Part shown: positions 8,629 to 52,179 of the stretch, in pieces | Numbering within the stretch: position 1 is the stretch's first letter | How the letters are laid out: each line of letters begins with the position of its first letter | NCBI RefSeq assembly: GCF_003574655.1 | Contig: NZ_QNUM01000007.1 | Span: 186,001-250,000 of the forward strand | Reading direction: 5' to 3' | DNA length: 64,000 nt | Source: Cohaesibacter haloalkalitolerans | GTDB lineage: Bacteria > Pseudomonadota > Alphaproteobacteria > Rhizobiales > Cohaesibacteraceae | Notes under the pieces: model-generated | The model's database searches: none | Seen by the model: only the letters and a program-made list of their open reading frames with translations | Told to the model about the DNA's origin: nothing | Program-made: the position numbers and the translations under genes

Positions 8629-9366
8629 ATGGGCGACATGACAGACCGATTCAGTCTGCTGCAAGAAACTATTTTCCGGGAAATCCAGAATGCTGAAAAT
8701 GTCGAGAAGGCAGTTTTCACATTGCGGGATGGCTACAGCCTCGGACATGTCACCTATCATCTGGCCCAGACGATCAAGGGCGATTTGCATATTGACTCGC
8801 CATTTGTGAGAACAACCTACCCGCCGGAATGGATCGCCATCTATCTGACGCGTAGCTATGTTACCGTCGATCCGGTGATCAAGGAAGGCATGCGCCGCAG
8901 TCTGCCGTTTGACTGGTCCGAGCTGGAACCCACCGAAGAAGCCATGAAGATGATGGTTGAGTTCCACGCTCAAGGAATGGGCGAATTCGGCTATTCCATC
9001 CCGATCACGGACAAGGTGGGACGTCGCGCACTGCTGTCGGTCAACTCCAAACCGGGAGAGCGGAACTGGTCCAAGGTGGTTCAATCCTTCCGTCCGGACT
9101 GGATGGATCTGGCACATGTGCTGCACAAGAAGGCAATCATCGAACTGTTCGGTGACGAGGATCCCGTGCCGATCCTCAGTCCACGTGAACTTGAAACGCT
9201 ACACTGGTCTGCACAGGGCAAGGACTACAAGGAAATCAGCGCCATCATCGGTATTTCCGAACACACGGTTCGCACCTACATGCGATCAGCCCGCTACAAG
9301 CTGAATTGCGCAAACATGTCCCAGGCCGTTGCCAAGGCCCTGAAGCTCAATCTTATCGATCTCTAG
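8629..9366 (+). CDS. LuxR-family autoinducer-binding transcriptional regulator
   Basis: A 245-residue quorum-sensing regulator with an N-terminal autoinducer-binding domain (about 20-165) and a C-terminal LuxR helix-turn-helix (about 180-242, 'LSPRELETLHWSAQGKDYKEISAIIGISEHTVRTYM'). The acyl-homoserine-lactone pocket residues expected of the family can be traced: the W and Y in 'YPPEWIAIYLTRSYVTVDPV' and the W in 'FDWSEL'. It is followed by a luxI gene in the same direction, 136 bp downstream. Start ATG 8629; an in-frame ATG at 8638 is an alternative and neither has a strong ribosome-binding site. Probably autoregulated through the upstream palindromes. Confidence 0.93.
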   Translation: MGDMTDRFSLLQETIFREIQNAENVEKAVFTLRDGYSLGHVTYHLAQTIKGDLHIDSPFVRTTYPPEWIAIYLTRSYVTVDPVIKEGMRRSLPFDWSELEPTEEAMKMMVEFHAQGMGEFGYSIPITDKVGRRALLSVNSKPGERNWSKVVQSFRPDWMDLAHVLHKKAIIELFGDEDPVPILSPRELETLHWSAQGKDYKEISAIIGISEHTVRTYMRSARYKLNCANMSQAVAKALKLNLIDL

Positions 9367-9405
9367 CCCCCTTATACACCCTTGGCTCGCCCTCACTTCG
9401 CGTCG

Positions 9406-9425
9406 CGCAATACTACATTTGTGCG
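9406..9425. promoter_or_regulatory. Weak 20-bp dyad upstream of luxI
   Basis: CGCAATACTACATTTGTGCG has CGCA/TGCG outer arms and 6 of 10 complementary pairs, about 78 bp before the luxI start. It is the best lux-box-like element in the luxR-luxI gap but is degenerate. Confidence 0.2.
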
Positions 9426-9502
9426 AACCCATTTATGCGAATTTTCAAGCCGGACTTTTTGAAACATTGTGGCTCTATCAGTTTTACCGATGGAGCAAAA
9501 AG

Positions 9503-10156
9503 ATGTTTGTGACACTGCAAGCCCATGAATATCACAAATATCCAGTTTTGATGGATCGCATGTTCAGGCTCCGCAAGGAGGTTTTCGCCGACCAGCTCGA
9601 GTGGGATGTGTCCGTTGAAAATGGCCGTGAACGCGATTTCTATGACGAGAAGATGCCCGTCTATCTGGTGTGGTGCAACGAAGAGAGGACGGTGCTTTAT
9701 GGCTCGATGCGGCTGATGCCGACGACCGGCCCGACCTTGCTTTATGACGTCTTCCGCCGGACTTTCCCGGTCGAGCTTTCACTGTCAGCCCCCGGTATCT
9801 GGGAAGGCACCCGGATGTGCATTGATCAGGACGCCCTTGCTCGCGACTATCCGAACATCGACCCGGGTCGGGCCTTCAGCCTGATGTTCCTGGCGCTGTG
9901 CGAATGCGCGCTCGATCATGGCATTCATACCATGATCTCCAACTATGAGCCGCAGATGAAGCTGATCTATCGCCGTGCTGGCGTTGATGTCCATGAACTG
10001 GGCCGTGCTGATGGCTATGGCAAACGCCCGGTCTGCTGCGGCATGTTCGAGGTCTCTGACGCGGTTCTGAGCCGGATGCAATCCAAGCTTGGCATCTCAT
10101 CTACGCTTTATCACAAAAACGGGCGCCACCCGGACCCGATTGAACTTGCAGCTTGA
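9503..10156 (+). CDS. LuxI-type N-acyl-homoserine lactone synthase
   Basis: A 217-residue autoinducer synthase that makes N-acyl-homoserine lactone from S-adenosylmethionine and an acyl carrier. The invariant LuxI residues are all visible: R and F in 'RLRKEVF', W in 'LEWDV', E/D pairs in 'GRERDFYDE', the R in 'GSMRL', and E/R in 'WEGTRMCID'. Start ATG 9503 is chosen because GGAG at 9492-9495 gives a well-spaced ribosome-binding site; an upstream in-frame ATG at 9419 lacks one. It pairs with the luxR gene just upstream. The acyl chain length cannot be read from sequence. Confidence 0.95.
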   Translation: MFVTLQAHEYHKYPVLMDRMFRLRKEVFADQLEWDVSVENGRERDFYDEKMPVYLVWCNEERTVLYGSMRLMPTTGPTLLYDVFRRTFPVELSLSAPGIWEGTRMCIDQDALARDYPNIDPGRAFSLMFLALCECALDHGIHTMISNYEPQMKLIYRRAGVDVHELGRADGYGKRPVCCGMFEVSDAVLSRMQSKLGISSTLYHKNGRHPDPIELAA

Positions 10157-40743: not shown

Positions 40744-41835
40744 TTATGATGCATTGACTTCGCCGAGGACGACTGTGTCAGTTTCCGCCCACGAAAGATG
40801 AACCGCATCACCGGTCCTGACCGGCTTTGCGAAATAGTCTGCGTCCCTGAGGACGATGGTGAAGGTCTCGATTCCGGCGCCCTGCACCGAAAGCTTGACC
40901 GTTGCGCCAAGGTCTTCGACATTGGTCACAAAGCCGGAAAAACCGAAGCCGGGGGTTGCTTCGTCAGCCAGCCGCACATGATCGGTACGGATGGCGATGG
41001 AGGCGGTTTCCACCGCTGCCGCCTTATCTCCAATCCCTATGAAATGGCTGCCGCCCGCCGTTTCCAGCGTGATGCGTTCGCCTTCGCGGGCGGAGATACG
41101 ACCGGAGATCACGTTGTGATTGCCCATGAAGCGGGCGACGAAAGGTGTCGCCGGCTTCTCGAAAATCTGACGTGGGGAGGCGGCCTGTTCGATCCGGCCA
41201 TCATTCATCACCACGATCAGATCGGCCAGCGCCATGGCCTCTTCCTGAGAGTGGGTAACATGGACAAAGGTCATGCCGAGGGATGCCTGCAGGCTTTTCA
41301 GCTCAGCACGCATCTGGATCTTGAGGAAGGGATCGAGCGCCGAGAGCGGCTCGTCCAGCAACAGCGCCTGCGGCTTGGTGATCAGTGCGCGTGCCAGGGC
41401 GACTCGTTGCTGCTGGCCACCGGAAAGCTGCTCGGGCCGCCGATCCGCATAGGCTTCCAGCTGCATGCGCGAGAGCATTTCCAATGCCTCGGCGCGACGT
41501 TTGGCCTTGTCCACACCCTTCATCTTGAGGCTGAAGGCAACATTGTCGACCAGATCGAGATGAGGGAACAGGGCATAGGACTGAAACATCATGGCCGTTC
41601 CGCGTTTGGCCGGAGGCAGATCATTGACCACCTTGTTGGCAAACACGATGTCGCCATCGCTGATGGCCTCGTGCCCGGCAATCATGCGCAGGGTGGTCGA
41701 CTTGCCACAGCCGGAAGGACCGAGCAGGCAGGAATAGGTTCCGGCGGCAATCTTGAGGCTGATCCGGTCAACCGCAACGGTGGAGCCGTACTGTTTGGTC
41801 ACAGACGCAAGTTCGATTTCAGCTGCGTTGCTCAT
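40744..41835 (-). CDS. Polyamine-type ABC transporter ATP-binding protein (PotA-like), cluster 1
   Basis: A 363-residue ATPase. Walker A is 'GPSGCGKST', signature 'LSGGQQQRVALARAL', Walker B 'ALLLDEPLSALD', followed by a TOBE domain (about 280-360). It is the first gene of the operon. Start ATG 41835 is preceded by AAGGGAG; the GTG at 41841 is unlikely. A GntR gene diverges upstream. Confidence 0.93.
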   Translation of the reverse strand: MSNAAEIELASVTKQYGSTVAVDRISLKIAAGTYSCLLGPSGCGKSTTLRMIAGHEAISDGDIVFANKVVNDLPPAKRGTAMMFQSYALFPHLDLVDNVAFSLKMKGVDKAKRRAEALEMLSRMQLEAYADRRPEQLSGGQQQRVALARALITKPQALLLDEPLSALDPFLKIQMRAELKSLQASLGMTFVHVTHSQEEAMALADLIVVMNDGRIEQAASPRQIFEKPATPFVARFMGNHNVISGRISAREGERITLETAGGSHFIGIGDKAAAVETASIAIRTDHVRLADEATPGFGFSGFVTNVEDLGATVKLSVQGAGIETFTIVLRDADYFAKPVRTGDAVHLSWAETDTVVLGEVNAS

Positions 41836-42155
41836 GGCCACTCCCTTTTGTGAACTCCCATAAGAGGTAGCAATTGCCGTGCCAAAATCAGGAAAAAAGT
41901 TAACAGAATGAAATCATTCCATTTTTCGATCCGATGAGGAATTTGGCCAAAATCGTAATTTTGCGTATGCTTAAATTTCGCGCAAGTGAATGCACAAAAA
42001 TAATGCGATTGAATTCTATTTAAACTGAGATCGTATACAATATTATTACCAATTTGCGTTCCATCTTAAATCGCCCTATAACAACCATAGAGCACTCTAT
42101 TGCATGGAGCGCGGATTAGCGGCATAAACGAGAAAACGCAGAACAGAATGTGGCT
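41836..42155. other. Divergent promoter region, AT-rich
   Basis: A 320-bp spacer between the transporter operon and the GntR gene. It is strongly AT-rich from 41870 to 42110. It includes GAATGA-aa-TCATTC (41906-41919), a 14-bp dyad, besides the GTATAC site listed separately. Confidence 0.5.
42030..42041. promoter_or_regulatory. Candidate GntR operator
   Basis: ATCGTATACAAT is a near-palindrome (one mismatched pair) around a GTATAC core, a form common among FadR/FCD-type GntR operators. It lies in the divergent promoter region next to the GntR gene. Confidence 0.4.
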
Positions 42156-42867: not shown

Positions 42868-44193
42868 CTAGCGCCTCTGCCAGGAGGGCTCGCCGTCGGG
42901 CCGGATGCTGTCAAAGAAGTCCGAGATCAGATCAGATCCTTCAAGTGGTCGCGATGCTGCACTGAGGGCGACCGCCAGACCGATGGCTGACGACACCGGA
43001 TTGTGCAGATCGGCCCCCTCACCGGCGTTGAGATTCATCACCAGCGTTGGCGACAGAAACAGGCCGATGCGCACCACATCTTCCCAGTCATCGGGCAACA
43101 TGCCCTTGCTCTTGAGATGCCGGAGCCATGGCTTCCAGAAATGCTCGGCCTTGGCCTTCAGCAGTGCCTTTCTAAGGCTTGAGGGCTGCCAGTCCGTGTC
43201 GATAATGAGCTTGCCATCTTCATACCGGACGGAGGCGGCATAGCGCTCCGACACGATGGAGGCACTGTAGAGCCAGAGCGGATGGGCAAAGACATTGTGA
43301 AAGGTCGGCTTGACTTCGGCCAGCAGCGAAGGCACGTCGCTGCCCGCAAAGGCCGGATCGAAGAAACAGAGGCGGTCCTTGTCGCTGCCCCTTTCATACC
43401 AGACATTGGCATTGTGCGCGTCACCATGGGCCACCACGCCACCGGCATCGGCCAACGCTTCGGGCTGATAGCGCTGATGGGCCAGCACGAAAATCTCCTC
43501 AAGGGAGCGCTGATAGGCAAGCCCATTGATAACCGGTCGGGCATGGGCAATCTCTTCCCACGTCAGGGTCAGCCCACCGGGCAGCAGAAAGCGCTTGCCG
43601 ACATAGAAGCGCTTGTAGCGCCCGCCGGGGAAGGCACCAGTTTCAGGATCAATCAGCCGTTCATGAAACAGACGATGGATGGGCTCTGCCCGCGATTGGG
43701 CAGGCGTGATCGGGTGCAGGCTGTTGATGGCCACTGCGAGCAGATGGTCGTTGAGGTCCGCTTCGGCTTCAACCGCCCGCGCTACTGCGACCGGGTCATC
43801 GGCAAAATCCAGCTCATAGAGCAGGTCCGAGAAGCGCGGATCCGAGCGGCGGGCATAGACCAGCACCTGCTCACCGGGCAGGGTCGACATATGCACCGGT
43901 TGATCCACCGGCAGCCCGGCGTGGGCCAGAATGTCAGCGCGGTAATATTCGCCGCGCATCGCCTCTTCTCCCTCTTCCTGATGGAACTTGAAGAAATAGT
44001 CCTTCCCCTCGGAGGAGAAGAAGCCGTTGAGGGAATTGAGGGAATATTTGTCGAGGTTGATCCTGAGGGCCTCGATGGGCAGGGAGAACAGCTCGTTGAG
44101 CAGCGTCGTGAGCTGGCCCTCTGCCGCCTTGATGTCATCAAGCGCCAGAGCACGGATCATGGCTGTGCGGGAAGCGGAAGAAGAGGCGGTCAT
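42868..44193 (-). CDS. Aminoglycoside-phosphotransferase-fold small-molecule kinase
   Basis: A 441-residue kinase of the APH/choline-kinase fold. The catalytic loop 'VVAHGDAHNANVWY' matches HxDxxxxN, and the metal-binding Asp follows in 'CFFDPAFAG'. The N-terminal lobe has 'DYFFKFHQEEGEEAMRGEYY', with a likely ATP-binding Lys. It is the last gene of ABC cluster 2, seven bases after the zinc dehydrogenase, so it probably phosphorylates the imported compound or an intermediate rather than an antibiotic. Start ATG 44193; longer frame to 44286 is unsupported. Confidence 0.8.
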   Translation of the reverse strand: MTASSSASRTAMIRALALDDIKAAEGQLTTLLNELFSLPIEALRINLDKYSLNSLNGFFSSEGKDYFFKFHQEEGEEAMRGEYYRADILAHAGLPVDQPVHMSTLPGEQVLVYARRSDPRFSDLLYELDFADDPVAVARAVEAEADLNDHLLAVAINSLHPITPAQSRAEPIHRLFHERLIDPETGAFPGGRYKRFYVGKRFLLPGGLTLTWEEIAHARPVINGLAYQRSLEEIFVLAHQRYQPEALADAGGVVAHGDAHNANVWYERGSDKDRLCFFDPAFAGSDVPSLLAEVKPTFHNVFAHPLWLYSASIVSERYAASVRYEDGKLIIDTDWQPSSLRKALLKAKAEHFWKPWLRHLKSKGMLPDDWEDVVRIGLFLSPTLVMNLNAGEGADLHNPVSSAIGLAVALSAASRPLEGSDLISDFFDSIRPDGEPSWQRR

Positions 44194-44200
44194 GGTCAAG

Positions 44201-45202
44201 TCATTGCTCCTGACAGCGGATAAGGGTCTTGAGGCCAGAGACCTCACCGGCCAGATTGCGTTCATAGGCGGCAGGCACCTCATCAAGCGACACGATGGCC
44301 GCGATGGCCTGATCGAGCACCGGCATCAAGGCGGGCAGCATGGCGGCGATGCTACTGAGCTCGCTGTCGCCAAAGCAATGGACGCCGACCAGCGCGATTT
44401 CCTTTTCCACCAGCGTCACCGGGTTGACCGACAGATCGCCATGGCCGATGCCGACCATCGCCAGCGCACCGCCGGGGGCGAGTTTGCCAACGAGGCTGGC
44501 GATCACCTGGGGAGCACCGGTGGCATCGACACCATAGCGCGGCGGCTCGCTGCCCCAGTCGCCATCCAGTGCCAGAATGCGAGCCCCTGTCATGGCAGCC
44601 ACGCCTTCGGTGCGGGCGCTGTTGCGGTCCACCACAATCAGCGGATGGCCCTTCTGGGCGGCCAACAAAGCCACAAGGCCTCCGATCGGGCCACAGCCGG
44701 TGACCACGATCTCGGCCCCGTCCGGTGCCCTCAGCTTGTTGAGCACATGCAACGCCACTGCCAGCGGCTCAGCCAGTGCCAGATGCTCGTCCGGTACGCC
44801 ATCGGGCGCCTTGAGCACGTTGCGGGCCGGGATAGTGACCGCTTCGGCGAAGCCGCCATCAATCACCTCGCCGAGAAAGCCGAGGTTTTCGCAGACCTGC
44901 CCAAGGCCATCGCGGCAATTGCGACAGGTGCCGCAGATGTGGCGGCTATCGACAATCACCCTGTCACCAACGGCAACATGGCTGACGCCTGCGCCAATGG
45001 CGGTGATGGTGCCGGCAAATTCGTGCCCGGCCACCGACGGGGCACGAGTGATCCACTCCCCGGTGCGGAAATTATGCAGGTCAGAGCCACAGATGCCTGC
45101 AAAGCTGACCTTGAGGGTCACTTCGCCAGCGTTTGGCGAAGCGGGAAGCGCAATATCCTCTACCCGCAAATCCTTGACGCCATAGAGTCGTACCGACTTC
45201 AT
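44201..45202 (-). CDS. Zinc-dependent alcohol dehydrogenase (HpsP/HpsO-like candidate)
   Basis: A 333-residue medium-chain dehydrogenase. The catalytic zinc region is 'GICGSDLHNFRTGEW...GHEFAG' (about 37-65), the structural zinc cysteines are in 'CGTCRNCRDGLGQVC' (about 90-104), and the NAD-binding glycine motif is 'VTGCGPIGGLVALL' near 167. It follows the HisD-like gene by 15 bp. In dihydroxypropanesulfonate clusters a comparable dehydrogenase epimerises the substrate through its 2-keto form; that role here is inference. Start ATG 45202 after AAAGGGCG. Confidence 0.87.
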   Translation of the reverse strand: MKSVRLYGVKDLRVEDIALPASPNAGEVTLKVSFAGICGSDLHNFRTGEWITRAPSVAGHEFAGTITAIGAGVSHVAVGDRVIVDSRHICGTCRNCRDGLGQVCENLGFLGEVIDGGFAEAVTIPARNVLKAPDGVPDEHLALAEPLAVALHVLNKLRAPDGAEIVVTGCGPIGGLVALLAAQKGHPLIVVDRNSARTEGVAAMTGARILALDGDWGSEPPRYGVDATGAPQVIASLVGKLAPGGALAMVGIGHGDLSVNPVTLVEKEIALVGVHCFGDSELSSIAAMLPALMPVLDQAIAAIVSLDEVPAAYERNLAGEVSGLKTLIRCQEQ

Positions 45203-45217: not shown

Positions 45218-46543
45218 CTAGTCTTCCAGATATTGCTTGCGCAGCTCGCTCACCGCATTGGCATGCGACGAGAAGCCCTCGTAGTCAGCCAGAATCTTGG
45301 CGTTCTTGGCAAGGTCGGGATAGCCCTTCGGCGTGACATAGCCGATGGAGCTGCGGCGCATGAAATCCTGTACCGACAGCGGCCCCCACGTCTTGGCCCC
45401 GGCCGAGGTCGGCAACACGGCGTTCGGCCCAAGGGCGAAGTTGGCAATAGAGACCGGTGTATGGGTGCCAAGCAGGATTTCGGCGGCATTGGTGATGGAG
45501 CCGAGATATTCGAAGGCCTTGGTGGAGAGGATCTCCAGATGCTCGGGCGCATATTCGTTGACGAAGGCGCAGGCGTCATCCATGTCGCGGGCGACCACGA
45601 TGCCGCCGGACTTGCCGGTGAGCACGGTGCGGGAGAATTCGACGCGCTGTTCGGTCATGTTGGCCCAGTGACCCGGAAGGGCTTCAAGCGCCTCTTTGGC
45701 CACCCGCTCGGAGGAGGTCACCAGCCAGGCGGAACTGTCTGGCCCGTGTTCGGCCTCGATCAGCAGATCCATGGCGGCCAAGCCACCGCTGACGGTGTCA
45801 TCGGCAAGGATCATCACTTCGGATGGCCCGGCAGGCAAGCCCGGATCGATCACGCCGGAAAGCAGGCGCTTGGCGGCAACCACCCACGGGCTGCCTGGAC
45901 CGACAATTTTCTGGGCCCGTTTGACGGTTTCGGTGCCGAAGGCCGCTGCGGCGACGGCCTGAGCGCCACCGACCTTATAGACGGTGCTGACACCGGCGAG
46001 ACGGGCGGCAACCAGCGTTGCGGCATCGACCTTGCCGTCCGGTCCCGGAGGGGTGAAGATGGCCAGGTTCGGCACCTTGGCAACGACAGCAGGGCCGGTG
46101 GTCATCATGGTGACAGAGGGGAATGAGCCCTTGCCGCGCGGCACATAGAGGGCGACGGATTCGATCGGCGTGAAGCGGTCACCGGCAAAGGCGCCGGGGA
46201 TCACTTCCTTCAGCCACATCGGCTCGGGAGCCTGTTCTTCATGGAAGGTGCGGATGTTGGCAATGCCGAAGCGGATCGCCTCGATCACCTCTTCCTCAAC
46301 CAGCGTGAAAGCTTCCTCGAACTCTTCCTCGGAGGCCTTGAGATTGTCGAGCGTCAGGCCCTTGGCCTTGTCGAGCTCGGTGCCAAAGCGCACCAGAGCG
46401 GCATCGCCCTCGGTCTTCACGGCCTCGATGATCGGGCCGACCTTCTCGATGAAGAAGGACAGGTCCGTTTCAGAGCGCTTTACCAGATCAGCGCGCTCTT
46501 CTGGCGACAGATCGGCCAGAACCTTGTAGGTCACGTCAGTCAT
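45218..46543 (-). CDS. HisD-family dehydrogenase, not histidinol dehydrogenase (HpsN-like candidate)
   Basis: A 441-residue enzyme with the full histidinol-dehydrogenase fold ('GPGSPWVVAAKRLLSG', 'LPAGPSEVMILAD', 'EAEHGPDS'). The general-base pair Glu334-His335 and the zinc histidines His266 and His427 are kept, but three residues diagnostic of HisD are changed: the zinc Gln is Glu263, the zinc Asp is Asn368, and the substrate-contacting His after GPN is Ala375. It also sits in a transporter operon, not with histidine genes. HisD homologues of this kind include sulfopropanediol 3-dehydrogenase (HpsN), which oxidises dihydroxypropanesulfonate to sulfolactate. The substrate here is inferred only. 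Confidence 0.85.
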   Translation of the reverse strand: MTDVTYKVLADLSPEERADLVKRSETDLSFFIEKVGPIIEAVKTEGDAALVRFGTELDKAKGLTLDNLKASEEEFEEAFTLVEEEVIEAIRFGIANIRTFHEEQAPEPMWLKEVIPGAFAGDRFTPIESVALYVPRGKGSFPSVTMMTTGPAVVAKVPNLAIFTPPGPDGKVDAATLVAARLAGVSTVYKVGGAQAVAAAAFGTETVKRAQKIVGPGSPWVVAAKRLLSGVIDPGLPAGPSEVMILADDTVSGGLAAMDLLIEAEHGPDSSAWLVTSSERVAKEALEALPGHWANMTEQRVEFSRTVLTGKSGGIVVARDMDDACAFVNEYAPEHLEILSTKAFEYLGSITNAAEILLGTHTPVSIANFALGPNAVLPTSAGAKTWGPLSVQDFMRRSSIGYVTPKGYPDLAKNAKILADYEGFSSHANAVSELRKQYLED

Positions 46544-46589: not shown

Positions 46590-47387
46590 TCATTTTGATT
46601 TGAGAAAGATTTCCAGCCCCACCAACCGGTCAAGCAGCCAGACCGCGATGAGCGCGATCACCACGAAGACCACCGAAATGGCCGCCAGATCCGGCGTGAT
46701 GATGGAGCGGATGTTGTTGTAGATCTGCACCGGTAGCGTCACTGTGCGCGCGTCGGTCAGCAGCAGGGACACCAGAAACTCGGTCATCGCCAGCACGAAC
46801 ATCAACAGTCCGCCGGTGATAACGCCGGGCATGACGGCTGGCAGGGTCACGTACCAGAAGGTCTCCATGCGCCCTGCCCCGCAGTTCTCCGCAGCCAGTT
46901 CCAGATCGCGGTCAAGCGCCGCCGCCGACGAGGACACCGACCAGATGACGAAAGGCAGGTTGATGACGGCGCAGGCAACACCGACCGGCCAGACATTGCC
47001 CAGAATGCCCCATTCACCAAATACCAGCATCATGCCGATGCCCGACCCGATCAGCGGTACGGTGAAGGGCAGCAGCAGATAGATATTGATGAGATTGACG
47101 AACTTCAGTCGGTAGCGCGTCAGTGCAATCCCGGCGACCGTGCCGACGGGCAAAGAGACAATGACACAGACCGTGGAAACAATGAGCGAGCGCCAGAGCG
47201 CCAGTCGCAGCTCGCGCGCCATGGCGATCTTCTCATACCATTTGAGCGAGAAGCCATCGGGCGGAAAGGCGATGATGTTGCCCGAGGTGACCGAGGCACC
47301 AAGCACGATGATGGTCGGCATCGACAGGGTGATGATGCTGATGCCAACGAGCGTCCAGAAAATGAGCTTCTGCGATGAACTGGTCAT
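46590..47387 (-). CDS. Polyamine-type ABC transporter permease (PotC-like), cluster 2
   Basis: A 265-residue permease with six membrane segments, starting 'LIFWTLVGISIITLSMPTIIVLGASV'. The EAA loop is around 'LAAENCGAGRMETFWYVTLPAVMPGVI'. The start overlaps the upstream permease stop by ATGA. Confidence 0.9.
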   Translation of the reverse strand: MTSSSQKLIFWTLVGISIITLSMPTIIVLGASVTSGNIIAFPPDGFSLKWYEKIAMARELRLALWRSLIVSTVCVIVSLPVGTVAGIALTRYRLKFVNLINIYLLLPFTVPLIGSGIGMMLVFGEWGILGNVWPVGVACAVINLPFVIWSVSSSAAALDRDLELAAENCGAGRMETFWYVTLPAVMPGVITGGLLMFVLAMTEFLVSLLLTDARTVTLPVQIYNNIRSIITPDLAAISVVFVVIALIAVWLLDRLVGLEIFLKSK

Positions 47388-48340
47388 TTCTTCGCCCCCA
47401 TGCCAAGAGTGCCAGCCCCGAAGATCATGAAGACCAGCCCGACAATCAGCGAACCGATGGCCACCAGAACCAGTGCCAGTGCCGAACCCAGCCCCTGATT
47501 GGCCGTTCGGAAGAACTGGTCATAGATGGCATTGGCGATAAAATCCTGCGAGCCGCCCCCCAGCATGGCAGGCATGGCAAAGTCGGTGAGCGAAAGGGTG
47601 GCGACCACCAACCCTGCGCCGATGAGGCCCGGCTTGGCCATGGGCAACACCACATACCACAGGGACTGCAGCCAGTTGGCCCCGAGCGAACCGGCGGCGG
47701 TTTCGATCTCCTGCGGAATGGCCGTCAGGGCCGGTGCCAGCAGCAGCACGGCAAAGGGCAGCATATATTGCACGAGGCCGAAGATGACGGCGGGATAATT
47801 GAACAGCAGGCGGATTGGTTCCACCCCCACCAGCCCCAGAACCTCGTTGACGGCACCGGAATTGCCAAGAATGATCAGCCAGCCATAGGCGCGCACCACC
47901 TGGCCGATGAAGAAAGGCAGAAACAGGATGACCAGCAGCCCCTTGCGCACAAGGGCGCTCGACGTCCGCACCAGAATATAGGCATAGGGAAAGGCGAGCA
48001 GCAGCGTGAAGACGACGGTCAGCGCAGCACCGAGCAGGGAGCGCCAGAGAATGCGCAGATAGGTGGCGCTTTCAACAATCGTCAGATAGTTCTCGCCGGT
48101 ATAGTTTTCCGAGGGCAGATAGGTCGAGGTGTCGAGCGTATGCAATGAGCTTTCGGCGATCTGGACAAGGCCGAGCACCAGAATGCCAACCAGCAGCAAG
48201 GCCGGTGCCAGCAGCAGCCAGCCGGTATGACGGCTCAACGACCGGGGCCAGATGAGGCTGGCACCTTCCTCAAGACTGTCCATGACCCGCCAGCGCAGGG
48301 GATAGCGGAACCGGGTACGGTCGACCGTGGGATTGTTCAT
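47384..48340 (-). CDS. Polyamine-type ABC transporter permease (PotB-like), cluster 2
   Basis: A 318-residue permease with six membrane segments after a cytoplasmic N-terminus of about 35 residues. The EAA loop is 'EIETAAGSLGANWLQSLWYVVLPMAKPGLI'. Start ATG 48340 is 111 bp after the binding-protein stop; a longer frame to 48430 has no membrane or conserved features. Confidence 0.9.
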   Translation of the reverse strand: MNNPTVDRTRFRYPLRWRVMDSLEEGASLIWPRSLSRHTGWLLLAPALLLVGILVLGLVQIAESSLHTLDTSTYLPSENYTGENYLTIVESATYLRILWRSLLGAALTVVFTLLLAFPYAYILVRTSSALVRKGLLVILFLPFFIGQVVRAYGWLIILGNSGAVNEVLGLVGVEPIRLLFNYPAVIFGLVQYMLPFAVLLLAPALTAIPQEIETAAGSLGANWLQSLWYVVLPMAKPGLIGAGLVVATLSLTDFAMPAMLGGGSQDFIANAIYDQFFRTANQGLGSALALVLVAIGSLIVGLVFMIFGAGTLGMGAKK

Positions 48341-48451
48341 CGGCGCGCTTCTTCCTTCGACTTGCCAGCCTGCCCGGGACCCGGGCTGACGTCCGGGCCG
48401 GATGTTTGCAGGCGATTGCCGAGGCTGCACCGGAGCGCAGCCTCCGGGCTG

Positions 48452-49558
48452 TTAGCCCTGCATGATTTCCTTGAACTTGGCGAACCATACGCTTTCGTTC
48501 TCGACCTGAACCTTGTTGGAGATGCGGATCAGATGCTCGAAATCTTCCGGTTTGACCGGATAGGACGGATCACCGACGAGGTCGGCAGGAGGCGTCAGGC
48601 CCGGCACGACGCCCGGCAGGCCAAGGCCATTACACCAGATCTGCTGGGCATCCTTGGTGATGGCGAAGTTGATATACTGCTTGGCCCAATAGAGCTCGTT
48701 TTCCGGCAGCCCCTTGGGAACCCACAGACCGTCGGTATCGAACTTGCAGCCTTCTTCCGGCACGGTCCAGGCAATGTTCACGCCGTTTTTCTTGGCAGCG
48801 AGCGCGTTGGTGGAAATGGTGCAGGCCAGATCAATCTCGTTGTTCTGGAACCAGTTGGTGAAGTCCGGGTCTTCGCCGAGCAACGGTTCCTGAGCCTTGA
48901 CCTCCTGAATGAATTTCCAGCAGGCATCCATGTTGCCCGGAATGTCTTCGAGCTTGCCGCCACCGGCTACCTGTGCCGGGAAGTGGAAGCCGATGCCGTC
49001 GTTATAGAGGGCGATGCGCCCCTTGAACTTGGGATCGAGCAGCGCCTTCCACGAGGTCGGAGCGCCATCAGGGAAGGCTTCCGGGCGGTAGGCCAGCACA
49101 TAGACATAGCCATAGGTGTTGACGATCGGATAGCCATCGAGGCCAACCGGCTTTGCCAGATCCAGCGTGTTCTTGAGGTTGGAGAGATCGGACAGATCCT
49201 CGGTGACGCCACGCAGCGCAGACTTCGTTGCGTTGGTGGTGGTGTCCCAGTTCACATGGATCGGCGGCACACGCTTCTGGGCAACGGCAGCCCAGAGTTT
49301 TGGCTGGATCTCATTGTCTTCAGTCAGGTCGTGACGCACGGCAATGCCGGTCATCTTGGTGAACGGATCGGAGACACCGGCCTTCAGAGCGTCCACCCAT
49401 TCGCCACCCCAGGCGCGAACGATGATCTCGGCTGGCTTGGCCGGCTCGGCAGCCAACAGCCTTGTTCCCGGCAACGTGCTCAGAAGAGCCGCGCCACCCC
49501 CTGCGACACCGGCGCGCAACACCGAGCGCCGTGATAGTCCATTCTTGAAATTCGCCAT
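48452..49558 (-). CDS. Polyamine-type ABC transporter substrate-binding protein, cluster 2
   Basis: A 368-residue exported binding protein with a twin-arginine signal ('LSRRSVLRAGVAGGGAALLS'). The mature part begins 'EIIVRAWGGEWVDALKAGVSDPFTKMTGI', typical of PotD/family-1 binding proteins. Several tryptophans and an acidic set (such as 'DGIGFHFPAQVAGG') may form the ligand pocket. The ligand should match the downstream dehydrogenases and kinase. Start ATG 49558 with GGAGAAGGGA upstream. Confidence 0.9.
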   Translation of the reverse strand: MANFKNGLSRRSVLRAGVAGGGAALLSTLPGTRLLAAEPAKPAEIIVRAWGGEWVDALKAGVSDPFTKMTGIAVRHDLTEDNEIQPKLWAAVAQKRVPPIHVNWDTTTNATKSALRGVTEDLSDLSNLKNTLDLAKPVGLDGYPIVNTYGYVYVLAYRPEAFPDGAPTSWKALLDPKFKGRIALYNDGIGFHFPAQVAGGGKLEDIPGNMDACWKFIQEVKAQEPLLGEDPDFTNWFQNNEIDLACTISTNALAAKKNGVNIAWTVPEEGCKFDTDGLWVPKGLPENELYWAKQYINFAITKDAQQIWCNGLGLPGVVPGLTPPADLVGDPSYPVKPEDFEHLIRISNKVQVENESVWFAKFKEIMQG

Positions 49559-49610
49559 GTTCCCTTCTCCTATGGAAATGATAAATGGGTGCCCCTGTTT
49601 CTTGCTATTG

Positions 49611-50732
49611 TCAGGCGTCGTGATTGAAAATCTTCATATCCTTGCCGTGCCAGCCGATCCTGACCGGCGAGCCGATTTCGAAAATGTCGAAGCTATGCGG
49701 ATCGTGGTGGTAGATCTGGAACTTGATGTCGGGCGCGCGTTCGCAGCCAACGACATAGATCAGCCGCTCACCCTCGAAGATCACATCCTCAACCTTCCCG
49801 TCCATCTCGATCTCGCACCCGGCCAATGCTTCGGGCCCGGCACCGATGCGCAACTGTTCGGCACGCACGGCCCCACGGGCCGGAGCTCCGAGGGTTGCCT
49901 CTGGCGTGGCCGAACCCGGCAACAGCAAATCACCGACCTTCAGGCCATCTGCCGTCAGAGTGCCGTCAATGAAGGTAGAGACACCGATGAAGCTGGCGAC
50001 AAACAGATTGTTGGGAGCACGGTAGAGGCCAACCGGCCTGTCGTGCTGCTGGATCAGGCCCTGATCCATGACGATGATGTCGTCCGAGACCACCAAGGCC
50101 TCGCGCTGGTCATGGGTGACGTTGATGGTGGTCACCCCCAGCTCCTTCTGGATCCGGCGGAATTCAAGCTGCATTTCCTCGCGCAATTTGCGATCAAGGG
50201 CAGCCAGAGGCTCGTCAAGCAGCAGCAGCTCAGGCTCGAACACCAGAGCGCGGGCGATGGCAACACGTTGCTGCTGGCCGCCGGACAATTCGTGCGGACG
50301 CCGCTCGGCATAGCCATCAAGCTTCACCAGATTGAGGAACTTCTCGACCTTGCCGGAAATCTCTGCCGGATTGGTGCGGCGCATCTTGAGCGGGAAGGCA
50401 ACATTCTCGGCAGCCGTCATGTGGGGGAACAGAGCGAGCTTCTGGAACACCATGCCGATGGAGCGACGGTTGGGCGGGTCGGCATCAACCGGTTTTCCGG
50501 CAATGGTTATGGTGCCTTGCGTCGGCTTCTGGAACCCGGCAATCATGCGCAGCAGTGTCGTCTTGCCGGAACCGGAAGGGCCAAGAATGGTCAGGAAGGA
50601 CCCGGTCTCGACATCGAATGACGCATCTTTCACCGCCGGACTGCCCGACCCGAAATCCATGGTCACACCACGGACGCTGACCGCTACGGAGCGTTCAGCC
50701 CGGGAAGCGCTATCCAGCTGCAAATCACTCAT
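49611..50732 (-). CDS. Polyamine-type ABC transporter ATP-binding protein (PotA-like), cluster 2
   Basis: A 373-residue ATPase: Walker A 'GPSGSGKTT', signature 'LSGGQQQRVAIARAL', Walker B 'LLLLDEPLAALD', and a C-terminal TOBE domain. Start ATG 50732 is chosen because AAAAGG lies seven bases upstream; a second ATG at 50738 is too close to that site. A 118-bp gap with AT-rich elements separates it from the SDR gene, so it may have its own promoter. Confidence 0.92.
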   Translation of the reverse strand: MSDLQLDSASRAERSVAVSVRGVTMDFGSGSPAVKDASFDVETGSFLTILGPSGSGKTTLLRMIAGFQKPTQGTITIAGKPVDADPPNRRSIGMVFQKLALFPHMTAAENVAFPLKMRRTNPAEISGKVEKFLNLVKLDGYAERRPHELSGGQQQRVAIARALVFEPELLLLDEPLAALDRKLREEMQLEFRRIQKELGVTTINVTHDQREALVVSDDIIVMDQGLIQQHDRPVGLYRAPNNLFVASFIGVSTFIDGTLTADGLKVGDLLLPGSATPEATLGAPARGAVRAEQLRIGAGPEALAGCEIEMDGKVEDVIFEGERLIYVVGCERAPDIKFQIYHHDPHSFDIFEIGSPVRIGWHGKDMKIFNHDA

Positions 50733-50850
50733 AAACATACCTTTTTCCTGATCGCAATCCTTGGTTGCCCCCTCATTATGTGGCGACCTATGCCCAATAT
50801 GTATATATGTTTTTCGAGCCTTTCGAAATTGCCGCACGGCTTCGGAATGC

Positions 50851-51621
50851 TCAAATTGCGGCCAAATAGCCGCCATCAATGCCCAAAATTTGTCCTGTGA
50901 TGTATTTTGAGGCATCCGAGGCCAAAAAGACAACCGAACCGATCAAATCATCAAGCTCACCGAAGCGTCCCAGAGGGATCTTCGACTGCATCGCTTCGAC
51001 CCATTCTTCATTCTCGTAGAAGACTTCCGTCATGTCGGTGCGGAAATAACCCGGCGCAATGGCATTGACCCGGATCCCCTCACCCGCCCATTCGGTTGCA
51101 AGCGCGCGCGTCAGACCCGCGATGCCCGATTTGGAGGAGCCATAGGGCACCGCCGTCGGCACACCAACGAAGGTGGTCAGCGAGGCCAGATTGATGATCG
51201 CGCCCCCCTTTGCCATGGTCTTTGCCACGGCCTGGGAGGTAAAGAAGGCGCCCTTGAGGTTGGTATCGATGATCTTGTCCCAGAGCGCTTCCTCAATGTC
51301 CTTGGCAGGACAGACATCCTCGACACCGGCGTTGTTGACCAGAATGTCGACCGGGCCGATGGCGCCGATGGTCTCGCGGATCTGCTCCACATCCCGCTGG
51401 TCGCAGGCGATGCACTGGACAGAGCGCCCCGTGGCCGCAATCCTGTCCGCCGTTTCCTTGAGGCTTGCCTGCTGCCGTGCGGTGATCACCAGATCCGCTC
51501 CAGCCTCTGCCAACCCGACGGCAAGCGCCTGACCGATACCGCGGCTGGCGCCGGTGACAAGGGCCTTCCGCCCGGCGAGCGAAAAGCGTCCAAAGAACGG
51601 TGGGGTGGCAGCATCAGTCAT
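50851..51621 (-). CDS. Short-chain dehydrogenase/reductase (HpsO-like candidate)
   Basis: A 256-residue classical SDR. The NAD(P)-binding motif is 'TGASRGIGQAL', the 'NNAG' motif is present, and the catalytic Ser-Tyr-Lys set is seen in 'IINLASL' and 'YGSSKSG'. 'GQILGIDGGYLA' is the conserved C-terminus. It resembles gluconate 5-dehydrogenase-type SDRs. As first gene of cluster 2 it probably oxidises the imported polyol-like compound. Start ATG 51621 follows AAGGAG by seven bases; the TTG at 51636 is rejected. Confidence 0.9.
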   Translation of the reverse strand: MTDAATPPFFGRFSLAGRKALVTGASRGIGQALAVGLAEAGADLVITARQQASLKETADRIAATGRSVQCIACDQRDVEQIRETIGAIGPVDILVNNAGVEDVCPAKDIEEALWDKIIDTNLKGAFFTSQAVAKTMAKGGAIINLASLTTFVGVPTAVPYGSSKSGIAGLTRALATEWAGEGIRVNAIAPGYFRTDMTEVFYENEEWVEAMQSKIPLGRFGELDDLIGSVVFLASDASKYITGQILGIDGGYLAAI

Positions 51622-52179
51622 CGGCGTCTCCTTCAATCGGGCCTGAACAAACCCGATCGACCTTGCAAAATTCGGCAGGATGCCGCGATGAGAAACGATC
51701 TCCCGAAGGGCTTCTCATGGCATCGGAGGCTTCATACTAAGGACGGAGTTTCGGACTCTCAAGCGTCTCCATGCCGGTTCTGGCATGAGTCGTTCCATTG
51801 AAAAGCCACAGATCGCGGGGCGAACCAAGCGTGTTGCGTCGCTTGTCCGGCAGAGAGTCACAATGCCGTTCATTATGATCAGACATACGTTTTAATAGAG
51901 CGGACATAACGGGCCAATGCACAGACATAACCTGTCAATAGGAACCGAAAGAACACGGTAATGGTGGCGTGTCTCTTACGCCTGCTGTTGCAGTGATTCC
52001 CGATATTAGATGTGGAAGGATGGGCGCGAAGGACGGGATGCACCTCCGAACAGGCGTCTCATGAAGCCTATCGGCAGCTTTCCATCGAATGGGCAGCCCT
52101 CTGTGACGCGCATGACTCCGGGAGGACATGGGGATGCCCTGCCCTGTCCGGGGGCTGAGGCAGCCGCCGGATTGCAGAC
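51622..52179. other. Upstream region of ABC cluster 2
   Basis: About 560 bp without a supportable gene, containing the triple direct repeat at 51880-51929 and probably the promoter of the cluster. The 63- to 101-codon minus-strand frames here have no recognisable features and are not annotated. Confidence 0.45.
51880..51929. promoter_or_regulatory. Three direct repeats at 21-bp spacing (candidate regulator array)
   Basis: C(A/G)GACATA occurs at 51880-51887, 51901-51908 and 51922-51929, exactly 21 bp apart. The second and third copies agree at 14 of 18 positions when extended rightward. A TTGACA hexamer overlaps the last copy on the minus strand. The 21-bp step places each copy on the same face of the helix, about 260-310 bp upstream of the SDR gene. 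Confidence 0.55.

Follow-up and report, generated by a model that had tools for sequence, protein, structure and literature searches.

Sequence and position of the repeat array

The locus described here raises the question of whether three evenly spaced copies of the octamer CRGACATA, situated upstream of a catabolic operon of Cohaesibacter haloalkalitolerans, represent an array of binding sites for a regulator. The window, that is, the whole stretch of 64,000 nucleotides that was analysed, contains CAGACATA at 51880–51887, CGGACATA at 51901–51908 and CAGACATA again at 51922–51929, with a start-to-start step of 21 bp. The three copies and their exact step, as given in an earlier note on this DNA, were confirmed in the sequence. 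That note also placed the array upstream of a HisD-like cluster. It does occupy a 5′ position, 266–308 bp upstream of the SDR start, but the first gene of this minus-strand operon is the SDR gene, with the HisD-like gene in sixth place. The genes concerned are as follows.

50851..51621, minus strand: SDR, first gene of the operon (Pfam adh_short_C2; ATG at 51621 preceded by AAGGAG)
46590..50756, minus strand: ABC importer with ATPase, binding protein and a pair of permeases (Pfam for the binding protein and the first permease; sequence similarity for the second)
45218..46543, minus strand: HisD-like dehydrogenase (Pfam Histidinol_dh; NCBIfam hisD, 419 bits versus a cut-off of 243.8)
42868..45202, minus strand: zinc alcohol dehydrogenase and APH-like kinase, the last two genes of the operon (Pfam)

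The solved chains nearest to the HisD-like protein are histidinol dehydrogenases, with DHPS dehydrogenases scoring lower, and the APH match of the kinase-like gene (22.6 bits) falls just below the cut-off of 23.2. Judging from their order and spacing, the genes from SDR to kinase would form a single transcript. SDR matches at E ≤ 1e–90 were obtained in 11 of 101 genomes and, within the genus (18 genomes), only in the host genome (G000) and in G001, G004 and G015. Homologous operons or part-operons were found in G015 and in members of other families. A TPR/sulfotransferase gene is also situated upstream of the array. Elsewhere in the window, at 8629–10156, there are adjacent LuxR-like and LuxI-like ORFs, named by eye from their translations.

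CRGACATA occurs four times in the window, compared with 1.60 times (SD 1.33) in shuffled sequences, and four copies were reached by eight of 100 shuffles. Triples of near-identical octamers with a constant step of 15–30 bp numbered two, versus a mean of 0.27 and a largest value of two in 30 Markov simulations. Seen in the 64-kb window of one genome alone, the array is of little significance. By eye, the spacers between its units differ from each other, and a young tandem duplication is therefore unlikely.

Conservation of the array

In a three-way alignment of G000, G001 and G004, the motif columns were invariant in 24 of 24 cases, versus 25 of the 39 flanking and intervening columns (Fisher P = 0.0005); overall invariance of the 559 bp aligned region was 72 %. 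All three repeats are in register in G001 and G004, and the spacers have diverged. The earlier note had made its proposal depend on conservation of the repeats and their spacing in close relatives with the same operon. Both were kept in G001 and G004, the two close relatives with this upstream region in common, so the proposal was not refuted by this comparison. A placement test is only modest when taken alone, because 10 of 508 placements of the array shape were wholly invariant, namely eight overlapping ones at 51712–51719 and the array at two offsets. The conservation indicates that the array is more than a product of chance.

A full-length match to the 751 bp of upstream DNA was found, among 60 other genomes, only in G004 (87 %) and G001 (85 %). 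The exact tandem pair was restricted, among the 18 genomes of the genus, to G000, G001 and G004, where it was always at the array. The upstream region of G015 lacks the array, although the operon is present (SDR 78 %, HisD-like protein 90 %); nearby are a GntR gene and, in place of the array, an operator-like palindromic site, and the operon has another setting. A separate 31 bp block at 51993–52023, outside any called gene, is invariant in G000, G001 and G004. In the 19 loci fetched out of 239 listed, its 15 bp core occurred only at the same place, in what are, by coordinates, copies of this region.

Searches for the array elsewhere gave the following results. With up to one mismatch, a two-copy pattern matched in 10 of the 18 genus genomes, with nine one-mismatch matches away from the array versus three for a reversed control; with up to two mismatches, G000, G001 and G004 yielded 9, 14 and 10 matches versus 6, 12 and 6 for the control. 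Two non-array matches were common to these three genomes, one at the start of a reading frame and the other within a different frame, which we take to encode ribosome recycling factor. A three-copy pattern with up to three mismatches matched in six of 297 genomes of the order, a draw that left out G001 and G004, and exactly only in G000. The TATGTC triple was found across genome contigs in at least 119 stretches, many of them simple tandem repeats by eye, among matches that may omit records near the host genome; when ten proteins of the locus were compared with these stretches by tblastn, only four weak family-level matches resulted. A literature search on TATGTC with direct repeats and operator produced only a GntR review that looked relevant.

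Operator-like palindromes in homologous operons

A UTRA-domain GntR gene (Pfam) is situated near the operon in G015 (locus L061), G029 (L064) and G098 (L066), and a partial ORF of this kind, judged by eye, near that in G059 (L065). The palindromes TATTGTCTATACATAA, CCATGTCTATACATAC, TTATGTCTATACATAA and ATATGTCTATACATAA are found at these four loci, about 40–63 bp before the SDR gene, and would be the operators of these regulators. The core published for the HutC subfamily, in the passages of PMC4494728 that deal with it, is the palindrome GTMTAKAC. This core was absent within 350 bp upstream of SDR at the homologous loci L063, L067 and L068; L062 has no upstream sequence from which to judge.

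A matrix was constructed from the four outside sites (G015, G029, G059 and G098), with zero bases of the array in it. When all window positions were scored, the two highest values fell within the array and the third in the gap between the SDR and ATPase genes. The sites are listed below, the array repeats being numbered as R1 to R3 in the direction of the operon.

51915..51930, minus strand: repeat 1 (R1), degenerate palindromic operator-like site TTATGTCTGTGCATTG (matrix rank 1 in the window, 11.86; TTATGTCTG and CAT invariant in 3/3 genomes)
51894..51909, minus strand: repeat 2 (R2), left half only, TTATGTCCGCTCTATT (TTATGTCCG invariant in 3/3 genomes; low matrix score)
51873..51888, minus strand: repeat 3 (R3), degenerate palindromic operator-like site GTATGTCTGATCATAA (matrix rank 2, 10.8; GTATGTCTGATCATA invariant in 3/3 genomes)
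50797..50812, minus strand: operator-like site in the SDR/ATPase gap, AAACATATATACATAT (matrix rank 3, 9.98)

It is apparent that R1 and R3 match the pre-SDR sites of the homologous operons and that R2 does not, its scores being −1.81 in the window, 1.36 in G004 and 3.68 in G001. The gap site has identical letters in G001, and one change and a lower score (6.8) in G004. A second site is present in the same gap in three of the four donor operons (L061, L065 and L066); these sites were not used in the matrix.

The order of the top positions was R3, R1, gap when G015 was removed from the matrix, R3, gap, R1 with G059 and G098 only, and R1, R3 with the gap site sixth when only G015 and G029 were used. 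Addition of the three gap sites lowered R1 to second and R3 to fifth. In the corresponding 19-kb loci, R3 and R1 rank as the top two in G004, and the gap site, R3 and R1 as the top three in G001. When 3000 column-permuted palindromic matrices were applied, 58 placed at least one of their top two positions in the array, seven placed both there, and two placed all of their top three in the array or the gap. The scores of R1 and R3 are not exceptional in themselves, as distinct from their clustering and place, since the same contig outside the window (186 kb) holds four positions above 9, the best at 11.8, about equal to R1, and the three others at 9.8–10.0.

The array sites also differ from the donor sites in strength and location: R1 and R3 score 8.7–11.9 versus 18.2–24.0, and the distance to SDR does not match, the array being 266–308 bp rather than about 40–63 bp away. 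In the window, as in G001 and G004, the 350 bp before SDR contain no exact GTMTAKAC core; by eye, R1 agrees with it at 6/8 positions, R3 at 5/8 and R2 at 4/8. The array sites are therefore referred to as operator-like and not as members of the HutC type.

Candidate regulators

In a whole-genome search of G000, G001 and G004, no relative of the G015 regulator was found above 35 % identity. The best relative (35 %) is encoded at another locus, whose other products are presumably histidine-utilisation enzymes; G015 has a matching locus, and the protein encoded there shares 78 % identity with this relative. The next relative (29 %), at G000:C22:169738, has a counterpart in G001, and none was listed for G004 at that threshold. 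As a first guess only, a trans-acting HutC-type paralogue (e.g. HutC) may be considered the first candidate binder. The site at the hut locus, ATATACATGCACATAA, has a matrix score of 6.7, and any link to HutC is thus tentative; the top score within 900 bp of the HutC-like GntR gene at G000:C22:169738 was 6.3. Should a regulator be found with a ATGTCTGNNCAT-like site in its own promoter, it would take precedence as a candidate.

The GntR gene at 42150, which stays near the operon in G000, G001 and G004, is of the FCD type, another subfamily, and its own upstream region has TCGTATACAA and not the array motif. The interval from this gene to the next ABC operon (41821–42149) contains, together with TCGTATACAA, a triple of AATTTNGC-like octamers at 17 bp steps from 41940.

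Probable history of the locus and the neighbouring AbcR-like sRNA

The hisC gene of G015 is divergent from SDR, with the palindrome between the two. A probable trace of such a gene lies in the window at the following position.

51731..51805, plus strand: probably the remains of a divergent hisC-like gene (tblastn with G015 HisC; frame broken)

This was the second-best place in the window for G015 HisC (E = 0.58, residues 11–35). The same place was the best in G004 (E = 0.25, residues 11–44) and was matched more weakly in G001 (E = 3.9). The array starts at about the point where the HisC match fades. The locus has probably lost both hisC and its dedicated regulator, and its operator sites have probably moved. 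A promoter-like hit at 51762–51734 is conserved into G015; there, however, these bases belong to the beginning of the hisC coding sequence, and the hit therefore says little in favour of a promoter.

Directly upstream of the array and the ABC operon is a further element.

52317–52181, minus strand: AbcR/ar15-like sRNA with a strong terminator (RF02345, 35.5 bits)

The score, obtained in a 1.3-kb search (E = 2.9e–5), is below the RF02345 gathering score of 40, and an Rfam scan of the whole window gave zero matches at the gathering score. At E 0.01, Rfam ar15 was reported in just two of eight loci (L004 and L016). The sRNA seed, CTGTTCCCCTCTGG, is present in all 14 of the genus loci that were checked. 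A second place for the sRNA in the host genome, G000:C19:453638, lies beside an ORF that we assume to be LsrB/VtlR. Among 23 start regions in the window, that of the binding protein (49539–49593, minus strand) was the top predicted partner of the seed, at −19.0 kcal/mol; 6.5 % of random stretches paired equally well. The GGAGAAGGGAACATGG of this start region is unchanged in G001 and G004 but not in G015.

A wider scheme can be put forward only tentatively, and we regard it as rather doubtful: a rewired operon, in which the GntR/UTRA regulator and divergent hisC were lost and three relocated operators at two-turn steps came under paralogous HutC-type control, beside an AbcR-like sRNA possibly acting on the binding-protein mRNA. 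If this is true, species of a single genus would differ here by turnover of operators and replacement of a regulator.

Alternative explanations

The main rival is that the repeats are direct-repeat half-sites for an AraC/XylS-type activator, bound as monomers 21 bp apart, with repeat 3 near the −35 position and a weak −10 (CATTGT; TATTGT in the relatives) 16 bp after it. We consider this unlikely. A 21 bp step is usual for AraC and XylS sites, and the array has both the direct orientation and this step, with unlike spacers. Among HTH regulators, it is chiefly AraC-family proteins that recognise direct repeats (PMC9723621). Each of the two 15 bp repeats bound by XylS has a TGCA box (box A) and, 6 bp away, a GGTA box (box B) (PMC5481539). 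Judged by eye, these boxes are approached in repeat 2 of G004 (CGCA, 6 bp, GGTTA), but repeats 1 and 3 have no TGCA box, a comparison that applies to XylS only. There are 14 HTH_18 matches in the genome, although no HTH_18 gene is present in the window. Three AraC orthologues of G000, G001 and G004 are without a close G015 copy; the two that were checked for co-occurrence are present in 10 and 9 of the 18 genus genomes and not just in those bearing the array. An AraC/XylS-type activator would, moreover, leave the CAT halves and the matrix ranks unexplained.

Somewhat less probable still is that R1 and R3 are decaying sites of a lost regulator, with nothing bound to them today. The failure to find a G015-type regulator in G000, G001 and G004, the decayed appearance of hisC and scores far under those of the donor sites would all agree with this, but relics should drift in the same way as their neighbours, and the 24 motif bases are unchanged in three genomes while the neighbouring ones vary. 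We give least credence to the possibility that the repeats are no protein site but a chance occurrence, a feature of RNA or a repeat in coding sequence. Twenty-one base pairs equal seven codons, ATGTCY in frame reads Met-Ser, such triples are not very rare per window and the placement test, which is free of frame, is modest. By eye, however, the frame from repeat 1 encounters TGA after four codons in G004, and TGA follows soon after repeat 3 in the G001 frame. The stretch downstream of the array (the array itself being outside the folded stretch) folds no better than shuffles (z = −0.71), and the conservation and the matrix ranks speak against chance.

Proposed model

We lean, with modest confidence, towards a conserved operator cluster in which the repeats are left halves and to which a GntR/UTRA (HutC-type) regulator of the SDR–ABC–HisD operon would bind. 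The regulator-binding array proposed in the earlier note fits as far as a conserved cluster is concerned; simple direct repeats at 21 bp are probably an incomplete picture, R1 and R3 being better described as palindromes. R1 and R3 would be degenerate palindromes (ATGTCTGTGCAT and ATGTCTGATCAT) whose centres are 42 bp, or four helical turns, apart, and R2 would be a half-site between them, making a weak middle contact. Regulator dimers on R1 and R3, lying on one side of the helix, would keep hold of the operon's promoter region, perhaps joined by the site in the SDR/ATPase gap, and a ligand linked to the imported substrate would release them. From the presence of the sites, their conservation and their resemblance to the homologous ones, all observed directly, we infer binding, repression and cooperativity, as well as operator function for the outside sites.

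Viewed in this way, the array would be unusual in its history but otherwise a rather common sort of control element. An orphan catabolic operon would gain a testable class of regulator and the exact bases to mutate, and the locus may illustrate, on a small scale, how operators persist after their regulator is lost, become separated from it or pass to another one. It would also show how degenerate palindromes may be concealed in what looks like an array of direct repeats.

Comparison with known systems

AraC/XylS-type operators, as far as they are described in parts of PMC5481539 and PMC9723621, resemble the array in having direct repeats about two helical turns apart; they differ in their boxes, which repeats 1 and 3 lack, and the window has no AraC gene. 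Multiple sites and extra half-sites are reported for the family to which HutC-subfamily GntR operators belong. Unlike the operators of the HutC subfamily (PMC4494728), the array has a degenerate core and three units at 21 bp steps, and no regulator gene of the subfamily was found beside the operon in G000, G001 and G004. It shares with them the ATGTC left half, the CAT right half and the palindromic frame of the pre-SDR sites of homologous operons. The SdhR site of this subfamily, TCTTATGTCTTATATAAGACATAAGA (named in PMC4494728), is an inverted arrangement rather than a direct-repeat array, and its likeness to the array lies in TTATGTCT, which forms one half.
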